Assembly (NCBI GenBank): GCA_017941345.1
Contig: JAGAWQ010000057.1
Coordinates: 1 to 42,382 of the forward strand
Source: Prevotella sp.
GTDB lineage: Bacteria > Bacteroidota > Bacteroidia > Bacteroidales > Bacteroidaceae
Length of the DNA stretch: 42,382 nt
Reading direction: 5' to 3'
The notes beneath the pieces were generated by a model. That model had not been told where the DNA came from, ran no database searches, and was given only the letters and a program-made list of their open reading frames with translations. Shown piece by piece: positions 821 to 6,976 of the stretch. The stretch's first letter is position 1. Every line of letters starts with the position of its first letter. A program made the position numbers and the translations under genes.

Positions 821-3800
821 ATGAGAAAGACGATATATTTGCTGCTGGCAACAGTGCTTTGGCCGATGGTCATGCAGGCAGCTATCCCTGAGGTGAAGTT
901 CCGCAGGCTGGATACACGAAACGGACTGTCCAGCTCGCAGGTGAACTGTGTGTACCGCGACTCTAAGGGCTATGTGTGGTTTGGTACGGCATACGGTCTG
1001 AACCGCTACGACGGCTACCGCTTCAAGACATTCTACTCGAACAGGCGCGATACGACGTCGATGCGTGACAACTACACCCATGAGATTATGGAAGGCTTCG
1101 ATGGCAAGCTGTGGTTGAAGCAGGGTATGAACTACTGCGTCTACGACCCCTTGACGGAGCAGTTTGAGCGCAATGCCGGTCGCGAGCTGGAGAAGTACCT
1201 GGGAACGCACAACGGCGTGGAGCGAATCTATATCGACGGTAAGAAGAATATCTGGGCGAAGTATTACGAGGAGGGCATCTTCTGCTATAACCCTCAGACC
1301 AAAAAGACGACGCGTATCAAGATGGGATATGGCGCTGGCGAGTTTAATCCCAGCTATACCATTTCAACGATGGCCACCTGTGGTCAGCAGGTCGTTGCCG
1401 TGACAAATGCCGGACAACTGGTGTGCATAGACAGCGAGAAAGGAGTGGTAGAGTGGGAGAGCAAGTGGATGGCCGAGCACGGCAGCCAGCCTCACCACGA
1501 CTATTTTGTTCATGTCGACCCACAGGGCAATTACTGGATAGTCACTGAGGGCTTTACATTTATCTATATTCAGAAGGAGAAGCGCTGGTATAGCCAGTTG
1601 ACTGAGTATCTGCATAGCCAGGGCATGCCCAATGTGCCTGAGCAATTGGCGGTGTGGGATGTGCAGTTCGACCGTCATGGCTGGCTATGGGTTGCCACCG
1701 ACCATGACGGACTGTTTGTCATCGACCTGAAAGGCAAGCAGATGCGCCAGTTCCAGAACAGCAAGTTCGATGAGTCGACTCTGAGCGACAACACACCGAA
1801 GCATATCTACATGGACCCACGCGGAACGGTATGGATAGGAACTTATAAAAATGGTGTCAACCAATACGTCGAGGGTCAGGCCAGTATCAGGAATGTGGAG
1901 ATAGGTGATATCAATACGGTGTGTGAAGACCGCTACGGCAACTACTGGTTAGGCAGCAACGATAAAGGCATCATGGTATACGATGCGAAGAGCGGTGAGG
2001 TGAAGGCGCACTACACGACCGCTAACAGTCCGATGCTGGGTAACATCATGGTAGGCTCCTGCCGTGCCAGTGATGGCAGCATCTGGTTCGGCTCTTACAA
2101 TGGTGGTCTGACACGCTGCATCCCGACTGCTGACCCCACACAGGCGAAGATTATTAACTATCGGGTGACTAACCAGCCCGACGGGCTGTCGAACAACAGC
2201 GTATGGAGTGTGACCGAAGACAAGTGGAAGCGCATCTGGATTGGAACGCTGGGCGGTGGTATCCAGAGGCTCGACCTGAAGACGGGCAAGTTCCGCACAT
2301 GGAACCAGAAGACGAATCCCGACCTGCCCAGCGACTATATGACCTCGGCGTCGTGGATTAAGAAAGGCTGGCTGATGGTGGGTACTACTTGGTACTATTG
2401 CTTTATCAATCCCGTGACGGGTAAGGTGGCCAACCGTGTGATACCAGATTTCGAGAATCTGCCTGTAGCCGCAGGTAATACGGTGTGTGTCATGGAAGAC
2501 AGCCGAGGACTGATATGGCAGGGCTCTTCGTCGGGACTCATCGTCTACGACCAGAAGACCGGACGCACGTGGGTGTTCGATATGACCAGCGGTCTGCTGG
2601 GTTCCAGCATCTGCTCCATCGTAGAGGATAAGGAACACATGATGTGGGTGGTGACCGACCATGGTGTATCGAAAATAGTTCCCCAGAAACAAGAGGATGC
2701 AAGCTGGCAGTTCACCATTCGCAGCTACAGCAGTCGCGACGGTCTGCAACAAGGCTCCCACAACCAGCGCTCCGCCTTCCTGACGCACGACGGTCTGATA
2801 CTGATAGGCGGACAGGACGGTATCGATATCATCAACCCGAAGGCCCTGTCGGACACCAAGAGCAAGGAGCGCCCGATTTTCAGCGGACTGCAGATTTTCG
2901 ACATGGACGTGGCGGTGGGCCAAGAGGTTGACGGACATGTCATCCTGGACGAGGCGCTGGACGAGTGTCGTGAGCTGACCCTTGACTTCAACGACCAGTT
3001 TACCATCCAGCTGGGCAGTGATGCCGGTCGTGTGAACAATGGCAAGCGCTTTGTCTATAAACTGGAAGGATTCAACGACAACTGGGTGAAGACCTCAGAG
3101 CTGAACCCCAATATCACCTATAACTCGCTGCGTGCCGGCGACTATACCCTGCTGGTGCGCATGCTGAACGATGACGGTACGATGGGCGAGGTGGAGAGCC
3201 GGTTGGACATCACCATCCGCCCCGCCTTGTGGCGTACACGCTGGGCTATCCTGCTCTATGTGCTGTGCGTATTGCTGGGTGCCCTGTGGTGGCGCCGCTG
3301 GTACATGAAGCGCCAGGCCATCCGCATGGAGGCAGAGACGCTGCGCCGTGAGACGGAGAAGAAGCAGTGGATGGGCATGATGCGTGCGCAGATGGCCGCT
3401 GAGCAACAGACAGAACAACCCCAGACAACGTCAAAGGAAGCGCATAGACCGCTGGTACTCCAGACCACGGACATTGTAGAGCTGCTACGTCAGTTGTGCG
3501 ATGACTACCAGCACCAGATAGGCAGCAAGGCTAAGGTGAACTTCCTGTCTACGGTCAAACTGTTGGATGCTGACATTGCCAAGAACGAGTTCTGTCAGGC
3601 TATCCATATCCTGCTCGACAACTCTATCCGCTTCTCACCAGGCGACTGTCGCATCAGTGTGGGCGTGGCTCGTACGGCCGAGGGTAAGGTACAGGTGCAG
3701 GTAGCCGACAACGGCATAGGTATCCGCGACGAGTTCAAGGAACACGCCTTCGACCGTCTGCAGGGTGACGATGACATCGCCCTGTATCAGGTGAAGGACA

Positions 3801-3919
3801 CCGTAGTAGCTCACGGCGGTGACATCAGTATCAAGGATAATCCTGGCGGTGGTACTATTTTCTATATCACACTTCCCGCTGCGGAAGAGATTGAAGAAGC
3901 TGTCGTGATGGATGAATAA
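821..3919 (+). CDS. Membrane propeller sensor with degenerate histidine-kinase ATPase domain; no phospho-acceptor helix or receiver
   Basis: A 1032-residue relative of hybrid two-component carbohydrate sensors. Residues 1-21 are a signal peptide. About 25-700 carry beta-propeller repeats ([20 protein letters not shown] is typical). About 745-795 is a Y_Y_Y domain and 807-826 a membrane helix. Inside the cell a linker of about 70 residues has no SHELRTPL-type H-box. An HATPase_c-like domain follows: N-box Asn934, G1 box DNGIGI from Asp963 and a terminal [11 protein letters not shown]. The G2 segment reads [12 protein letters not shown] where GTGLGLxxVK is expected, and the ATP lid is short. 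There is no receiver and no HTH. It is 21 bp upstream of a paralogue that carries the DNA-binding domain. I infer a non-autophosphorylating partner sensor, probably for the oligosaccharide cut by the downstream glycosidases. Confidence 0.85.
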   Translation: [1032 protein letters not shown]

Positions 3920-6900: not shown

Positions 6901-6976
6901 TCCCCGCTACTTTTCTAAATACTTTAAGGAGATGTACGGCATGATGCCTTCCGAGTACAAAAACAAGGAAGAATAA
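3941..6976 (+). CDS. Membrane propeller sensor fused directly to an AraC-type DNA-binding domain; kinase-dead hybrid-regulator derivative
   Basis: A 1011-residue paralogue of the preceding gene, closely similar through the periplasmic part (shared start [20 protein letters not shown]). Signal peptide about 1-21, propeller repeats to about 690, Y_Y_Y domain about 722-770, membrane helix 784-803. A single cytoplasmic helix resembling a DHp helix follows: VSDELRQPF, where a kinase would have SHELRTPL. The acceptor His is Asp836. There is no ATPase domain and no receiver. Residues about 905-1008 form an AraC HTH (typical [31 protein letters not shown]). Transcription of the GH31-GH2-GH31 genes starts from a separate promoter just after this gene, making them the likely target. 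Signalling must use conformational change or partner contact, not intramolecular phosphotransfer; this is inference. Confidence 0.88.
   Translation: [1011 protein letters not shown]

Follow-up and report, generated by a model that had tools for sequence, protein, structure and literature searches.

Hybrid two-component systems (HTCSs) of Bacteroidetes have a periplasmic propeller with a Y_Y_Y domain, a single transmembrane (TM) helix, and an AraC-type output domain, and their motifs have been published as direct repeats with long spacers before glycan genes (PMC3878776). By the usual definition, the same chain as the AraC domain also carries a DHp segment with the acceptor His, a receiver, and an ATPase lobe (CA; HATPase_c). 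Two kinds of protein depart from this plan. One is BT4236, an HTCS of Bacteroides thetaiotaomicron with Gln at the phosphorylation site, for which a phosphorylation-independent mechanism has been suggested (PMC11253607). The other comprises transmembrane transcription regulators, some of them containing Y_Y_Y, which are described as having sensor, TM helix, and DNA-binding domain in one chain and no phosphorelay (PMC10269533). Here we analyze a tandem pair of sensor genes, P1 and P2, in a 42,382-nucleotide stretch of DNA from Prevotella sp. (contig JAGAWQ010000057.1 of assembly GCA_017941345.1; the whole stretch is called the window below). Comparison with related loci makes it most likely that P2 activates the neighboring GH31 gene from the membrane, independently of phosphorylation, through the operator of its HTCS parent. 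The explanation that we favor for the pair as a whole, with moderate confidence, is that P2 is a kinase-less activator and P1 a kinase-dead co-receptor, both derived from one HTCS.

P1 (821..3919) and P2 (3941..6976), both on the plus strand like every feature in this paragraph, are intact open reading frames (ORFs) separated by 21 nt. P1 consists of a signal peptide, a propeller of Reg_prop repeats with Y_Y_Y, a coiled coil, a CA lobe (3590..3883; residues 924-1021, HATPase_c in Pfam at 59.4 bits), and a C-terminal tail of 10 residues (3887..3916). P2 consists of a Reg_prop propeller with Y_Y_Y, a DHp-like segment (6416..6610), and an AraC-type HTH_18 domain (6728..6964; residues 930-1008, Pfam, 86 bits). 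Inspection of the sequences places one TM helix in each protein. The Pfam scan found no HisKA, receiver, or HTH in P1 and no HisKA, HATPase_c, or receiver in P2; a receiver was absent from both even at E ≤ 1. The two proteins are 38% identical across 928 aa, mainly in the propeller. Our initial annotation had described P1 as having an ATPase-like domain without an H-box, which Pfam and an alignment of P1-type proteins bear out. It had also described P2 as having Asp in place of the acceptor His (VSDELRQPF), no ATPase, no receiver, and an AraC end, and Pfam and the translation agree; the codon for Asp836, counted from the translation, lies at 6446-6448. Compared with an HTCS, both proteins keep the propeller/Y_Y_Y sensor and the TM helix, and neither has a DHp with acceptor His or a receiver; CA and AraC do not share a chain, CA being found only in P1 and AraC only in P2. 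P2 has the architecture of a one-component transmembrane regulator, with sensor, TM helix, and DNA-binding domain in one chain and neither kinase nor receiver, whereas P1 has no DNA-binding domain.

To place the pair among its relatives, P1 was searched at E ≤ 1e-140 against 200 genomes of the genus, among them that of the window, and matched in 65. The C-terminal part of P2 was the only query used against 398 genomes, and pairs are therefore over-represented in the sample; matches came from 39 of these genomes; 15 were P2-type, from 14 genomes, and full HTCSs scored no more than 190 bits. In a family-wide sample of 201 genomes, few of them of the genus, the C-terminal part of P1 had matches (E ≤ 1e-22) in just two, the window's genome and another from the genus; a name search yielded two records 53-55% identical to P1. 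The fetched loci were classed as 46 P1-type, 15 P2-type, 12 SH, and 17 full HTCS sensors, SH being a protein of about 870 aa with neither CA nor AraC. P1-type and SH loci come from the 200-genome set together with L107 and with the pair loci L139-L141, to which the P2 search led; L108 resembles the L060 contig and was left uncounted. The 17 full HTCSs are those fetched and used out of about 29 loci listed. The outgroup L101 was left out of all counts, L099 and L154 out of the tree, L040, L050, L064, and L099 out of the CA table, contig-cut proteins out of the tail count, and the near-duplicates L152 and L143 as well as L146, which has no -7 box, out of the half-site test described below.

In this Prevotella-type genus, the slot before GH31 is held variously by a full HTCS, P2 alone, P1 alone, SH and P1, or P1 and P2. 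The gene that directly follows is GH31 for 34 of 46 P1, 12 of 15 P2, and 16 of 17 full HTCSs; among the remainder, several loci are cut by contig ends, and L090 and L091 (P2) and L149 (HTCS) have another gene there. SH is followed by P1 in eight loci, and the order P1-P2-GH31 is conserved in five genomes (the window, L051, L139, L140, and L141) with P1-P2 gaps of -8 to 21 nt. That full HTCSs occupy the same syntenic slot supports the descent of P1 and P2 from one hybrid two-component regulator, as initially proposed.

The history of the slot is recorded in two trees. With the distant L101 as root, the tree of propellers separates full HTCSs at the earliest split and solitary P2s after them, and the remainder falls into three groups, with low support at the deepest nodes (0.72-0.74). 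Group A contains the 12 SH and three P1, group B 13 P1 and the five paired P2, and group C 29 P1, the five paired P1 included. The paired P2s form a distinct group that is found only beside P1 (5/5). The CA lobes of P1 form one clade (support 0.997), so the CA-only architecture probably arose once. For several proteins the CA and propeller trees conflict; the propellers of L073 and L077, for example, belong to group A and their CA lobes lie beside that of L054 from group C, which suggests recombination among tandem copies.

Loss of the kinase extends across the family, as the initial annotation had seen it in one pair. The acceptor His is present in all 17 full HTCSs fetched (15 by pattern, two more read directly) and in none of the 15 P2, which have Asp (10), Glu (4), or Lys (1) instead. 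None of the P1-type proteins aligned has an H-box, and the coiled coil after the TM helix runs straight into the CA lobe. Full HTCSs, which are 33-36% identical to P1, do carry one, a sign of ancestry rather than a refutation of kinase loss. The N-box Asn and the G1 Asp are kept in 42 of 42 P1 lobes, the N-box Lys/Arg varies, and the F-box Arg survives in the window's P1 alone, the other 41 having lost it. The ATP lid is halved, with 7-14 residues from F-box to G2 in the 42 P1 lobes vs 18-27 in the 17 full HTCSs, and GxGxGL is kept in 10 of 42 lobes vs 14 of 17 full HTCSs. The window's own lobe keeps the N-box Asn, the G1 Asp, and the F-box Arg and has lost the second F-box Phe and the G2 box, and its lid is shortened; the G2 loop is thus degenerate, as initially noted, in a loss that is partly peculiar to this copy. 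With the N-box Asn and G1 Asp kept, the lid halved, and motifs lost, nucleotide binding by P1 is plausible and autophosphorylation is not. P1 can accordingly be described, on these motifs, as kinase-like and predicted to be unable to autophosphorylate, having no DHp, a halved lid, and, in the window copy, no G2 box.

A lobe of this kind might still phosphorylate the DHp of another kinase in trans, for example that of a nearby HisKA kinase, so that phospho-signaling would be split between proteins. In several loci, L051 and L078 among them, a kinase with HisKA and HATPase_c does lie downstream of GH31, but such a kinase has its own HATPase_c, P2 offers no His, and the ATP lid, which is needed to grip a DHp, is halved in P1 lobes that have also lost the F-box Arg in 41 of 42 cases. 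We consider this arrangement very improbable.

Kinase loss is not a general property of these genomes. The suggestion that all of their HTCSs are kinase-dead was rejected, as His was shown in 12 of 15 other HTCSs, seven of them in genomes with P1 or P2, and in the other three (L171, L179, and L180) the printed stretch missed the box; loss of His is therefore not genome-wide. It does recur in the outgroup L101 (G000:C182, from the window's genome; 8052-11801), which has a propeller, a DHp-like segment with Asp for His (TSDELRQPM), an odd receiver-like part, and AraC, and in which no CA lobe is evident. The central part of L101 matched at E ≤ 1e-79 in 38 of 100 genomes of the genus (own included), and all five copies read have Asp or Glu for His. 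Within the window's genome, which is 60% complete, none of six Y_Y_Y proteins coincides with a DHp-CA match among the matches listed (two of nine), and the best of the nine is a 424-aa frame. The same genome assembly label holds L103 (G000:C15, 299-3103), a 934-aa propeller-TM protein with a long acidic cytoplasmic tail in which reading of the sequence makes no output domain evident.

Missing domains could in principle be the product of an assembly error, a frameshift, or decay into pseudogenes, and the window's genome is indeed fragmented and incomplete, with a frameshift in the neighboring GH31 gene. Both architectures nevertheless recur intact in many genomes, and dN/dS is far below 1 for P1, for P2, and for their cytoplasmic parts (examples are 0.065/1.10 for P1 of L058/L059 and 0.081/0.73 for P2 of L093/L143; dS is saturated in more distant pairs). 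By this measure P1 and P2 are both under purifying selection. We regard the artifact explanation, including the frameshift that the initial annotation had named as a potential objection, as refuted for practical purposes.

Evolutionary rates also differ between the two partners. All 10 genome pairs drawn from the five pair loci show the propeller better conserved in P1 than in P2 and the cytoplasmic part better conserved in P2 than in P1. Propeller rates normalized to GH31, for which only the larger GH31 piece was used in the window, have medians of 2.76 for paired P2, 2.28 for solitary P2, and 2.36 for full HTCSs, with overlapping ranges, and of 1.67 for paired and 2.13 for unpaired P1, also with overlapping ranges. 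These contrasts are compatible with a division of labor between P1 and P2 and with a hetero-oligomer.

The strongest link between P2 and GH31 comes from the DNA between them. We take TAnnTTTG to be the Bacteroidetes-type -7 box consensus. In the window, a box that fits it, TACATTTG (790..797, plus strand), precedes the P1-P2 operon, and no scoring TAACATTT half-site was found in the 200 nt upstream of P1. A second -7 box, TATCTTTG (7031..7038, plus strand), belongs to the GH31 promoter between P2 and GH31, and a putative P2 operator half-site, TAACATTTCGCACG (6996..7009, plus strand), starts 35 nt before it. Across the loci, P2 and GH31 are a median of 100 nt apart (n=12), full HTCSs and GH31 123 nt (n=16), and P1 and GH31 25 nt (n=34), and the gap contains TAnnTTTG in 12/12, 15/16, and 0/34 cases, respectively, or 27/28 for AraC-bearing sensors directly before GH31. 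The count for P1-ended loci remains 0/34 when the 140 nt before GH31 are considered, coding parts included. A half-site close to TAACATTTTATgCA precedes the -7 box. With leave-one-out training, the -7 box masked, and a threshold of p ≤ 0.05 against shuffles of each locus's own bases, this half-site is significant in 20 of 25 AraC-bearing loci (P2 10/11, full HTCS 10/14) vs 1 of 34 P1-ended loci, the sole case being marginal. Eighteen of the 20 half-sites lie near 35, 57, 78, or 100 nt from the box, in steps near 21.5 nt, and two lie at 29. In the loci analyzed, the promoter, and mostly the operator, is thus present where the DNA-binding domain stays and gone where the domain is gone.

The combined pattern TAACATTT-26..29-TAnnTTTG has six matches in the five pair genomes, one each in four and two in the fifth, and five of them stand before GH31; a reversed control gave no match in these genomes. 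The sixth opens a SusC-SusD-x-x-GH5 cluster in G350 that runs up to the P1-P2 pair (L197, 540-10816). There the called SusC ORF begins inside the operator pattern, and translation more likely starts at a Met further on. A wider version of the pattern proved too loose: among the matches listed for 23 further genomes, there were 0-8 in the 14 with P1 but no P2 at the locus and 2-17 in the nine with P2 alone. The positions before GH31 and before the G350 cluster tie P2 to local glycan genes, with a target that, by motif, is that of its kinase-bearing relatives. To the architecture of a one-component regulator P2 thus adds what appears, from sequence comparison, to be a conserved target site at the regulated promoter.

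In our explanation a single HTCS before GH31-GH2 was the ancestor of both proteins. Sequence comparison shows that they share descent, that domains and His were lost, that selection is purifying, and that operator, promoter, and pairing are conserved. P2 has parted with the CA lobe, with the receiver, and with the acceptor His; its propeller, TM helix, DHp-like dimer helices, and AraC have been kept. We infer that ligand binding moves the P2 propeller dimer and that the direction of control is activation: the movement would be relayed by the membrane helices to the AraC pair, which would bind the phased TAACATTT half-sites before the GH31 promoter, the whole signaling path operating without any phosphorylation. 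P1, a product of the same operon, would be a kinase-dead co-receptor that probably binds nucleotide and would not autophosphorylate. In the pair loci it would most likely tune P2 by forming a hetero-oligomer via propeller, TM helix, and coiled coil; a P1-P2 heteromer in these five loci, with which the conserved adjacency and the rate contrasts are compatible, is plausible but unproven.

Several observations weigh against this proposal. No adjacent P2 is seen in 41 of 46 P1 loci, some of them cut by contig ends, and no adjacent P1 in 10 of 15 P2 loci, so P1 is not needed for P2-type control generally. The P2 genes of L090 and L091 do not have GH31 next, L146 has no -7 box, and the half-site falls below significance in 4 of 14 full-HTCS and 1 of 11 P2 promoters. 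The half-site was first spotted in the same promoters and the loci are related, against which leave-one-out training and phasing guard only partly. The 10 genome pairs used to compare conservation come from five loci, are non-independent, and include one that is nearly tied (0.68 vs 0.67), and the contrast between the propeller rates of paired and solitary P2 (2.76 vs 2.28) is weak and suggestive only. Finally, P1-ended loci have neither promoter box nor, one marginal case aside, half-site before GH31, hence no AraC target, which implies that P1 does something else there. The counts of unpaired genes, together with at least three paralogue groups with shuffled output modules in the propeller tree, also speak against a simple duplication with complementary losses, the history first envisaged. 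The initial observation is therefore confirmed and more general than one window, and its interpretation is partly supported: the idea of a one-component transmembrane regulator gains support for P2 from its conserved operator and promoter, and does not apply to P1, which has no DNA-binding domain.

A clue to the role of P1 away from P2 is its tail. An EEAVLMDD-like C-terminus (e.g., IEEAVLMDD) ends 42 of 42 complete P1 and 9 of 11 complete SH proteins, and none of 15 P2 or 17 full HTCSs. Eight of 399 other ORFs, some of them contig-cut, match a loose expression for the tail, and none of these ends like the P1/SH tail by eye. As the tail is kept in SH, which has no CA lobe, it suggests an output or docking element. 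We entertain, as a tentative extension, a non-phosphorylating hetero-oligomeric switch in which the CA-only P1, whose propeller is the better conserved, would be the main glycan sensor driving P2, with its less constrained propeller and conserved DNA-binding part; across the genus, P1 and SH would then form a class of receptors without kinase chemistry or DNA binding that use the EEAVLMDD-like peptide as output.

The same tail, and the frequency of P1 without P2, can be read differently: P2 alone may control GH31, and P1 may be an independent receptor whose tail signals to another partner, such as an upstream LacI, the pairing being merely what tandem duplication left behind. Many of the loci have a LacI-family gene nearby, and relatives of the L053 LacI (74-91% identity) occur in 26 other loci of the L048-L106 set. 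Of 32 upstream regions listed, 28 have, counted by eye, a site CGTAAACGTTTGC before the LacI gene, and in L053 (9191-13321) LacI and P1 share one reading frame of 1376 aa. This fusion is a single case in one draft assembly and may be an error, the two being separate genes in the neighbor L056. LacI also adjoins full HTCSs and P2-only loci, which makes it an old neighbor rather than a P1 partner as such and weakens its candidacy as a dedicated partner. The window's genome, at 60% completeness, has no LacI relative at E ≤ 1e-60, and the window has no CGTAAACGTTTGC site at up to 2 mismatches. We rate an independent P1 as less probable than a co-receptor. As an aside, the site before LacI, CGTAAACGTTTGC(G), is palindrome-like and lies some 17-20 nt before a -7 box, for example in L048, L052, and L150.

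P1 may also have ceased to be a regulator and become an inner-membrane scaffold that binds oligosaccharides for the glycosidases, its CA lobe being a remnant. GH31 follows P1 at a median of 25 nt and without a promoter box of its own, so P1 looks co-expressed with the enzymes, and the cytoplasmic parts of P1 mostly evolve faster than its propellers. A remnant sits poorly, however, with nucleotide-binding residues of the CA lobe and a tail that are conserved family-wide, and with a cytoplasmic part still under purifying selection, and we hold a scaffold to be unlikely.

The genes behind the pair bear on the substrate. GH31 (7067..10053, plus strand; Gal_mutarotas_2, GH31, and DUF5110) is interrupted in the window by a frameshift and appears as two ORFs (7067-8047 and 8044-10053); the break is at about 8000-8030, beside ATTATCA repeats, and the 990-aa L139 relative aligns in two frames. 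It is followed on the plus strand by GH2 (10050..12398), whose best NCBIfam model is beta-galactosidase GalB at 778 bits, under the cut-off of 900, and by a second GH31 (12427..14751), whose best NCBIfam model is alpha-xylosidase, under its cut-off. Beyond these, on the minus strand, a sensor kinase whose sensor part resembles solute-binding proteins (SBP_bac_3), with HisKA and HATPase_c (14782-16509), adjoins a sodium:solute symporter. In Segatella copri, a cluster of HTCS, GH2, and GH31 (NQ544_01410-01420) is co-regulated with a xyloglucan polysaccharide utilization locus (PUL), and its HTCS has been proposed as a xyloglucan sensor (PMC11784079). By analogy, the ancestral HTCS before GH31-GH2 was probably a regulator responding to xyloglucan oligosaccharides, and the GH5 gene before the G350 pair fits a xyloglucan substrate. 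Rumen Xylanibacter/Segatella strains grow on xyloglucan, and in some of them no xyloglucan PUL has been identified (PMC11107044). A GH31-GH2 cluster without SusC/SusD, like that of the window, might be part of the answer.

How, then, do P1 and P2 compare with known systems? By sequence, the nearest solved sensor domains are PDB 4a2l/4a2m and 3v9f. Periplasmic propeller, Y_Y_Y, single TM helix, the AraC output of P2, and direct-repeat operators are shared with HTCSs; unlike these, P1 and P2 both have no acceptor His and no receiver, and CA and AraC are in separate chains. The only solved CA lobe matched by P1 at E ≤ 1e-8 is that of DivL (PDB 4q20), a protein that we take to be without the acceptor His. 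DivL and RocA resemble P1 in being histidine-kinase-like accessories of another regulator; they differ, as described, in having a HisKA/DHp region and in serving kinases, whereas P1 is without a DHp and would serve a partner that has no kinase either (PMC11500502, PMC6193603). P2 resembles BT4236 in having lost His, but for BT4236 the residue change alone is mentioned, whereas P2 and 14 other P2-type proteins are also without CA and receiver (PMC11253607). From the transmembrane regulators, P2 differs in its traceable descent from an HTCS, whose DHp-like helices and, by motif, operator it has kept, and P1 differs in having no DNA-binding domain. The Segatella copri cluster NQ544_01410-01420, as described, corresponds in gene content, the basis of this likeness rather than sequence, to the full-HTCS form of the locus (PMC11784079). 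In a literature search that reached few subscription papers, neither CA-only propeller receptors nor a P1-P2 pair turned up.

One syntenic locus thus offers a natural series in the dismantling of a hybrid kinase-regulator, from full HTCS to kinase-less regulator, split pair, and receptor without a known output domain. The series makes it possible to test what phosphorylation contributes when a regulator is tethered to the membrane and its dimer already pairs the DNA-binding domains, and it points to a conserved receptor tail that still awaits explanation. HTCS derivatives, transmembrane one-component regulators, pseudokinases, and the His-less HTCS BT4236 are known kinds (PMC11253607); the split pair, the CA-only receptor family with its tail, and the natural series at a single locus appear, within the reach of the literature search, to be a new variation on them.

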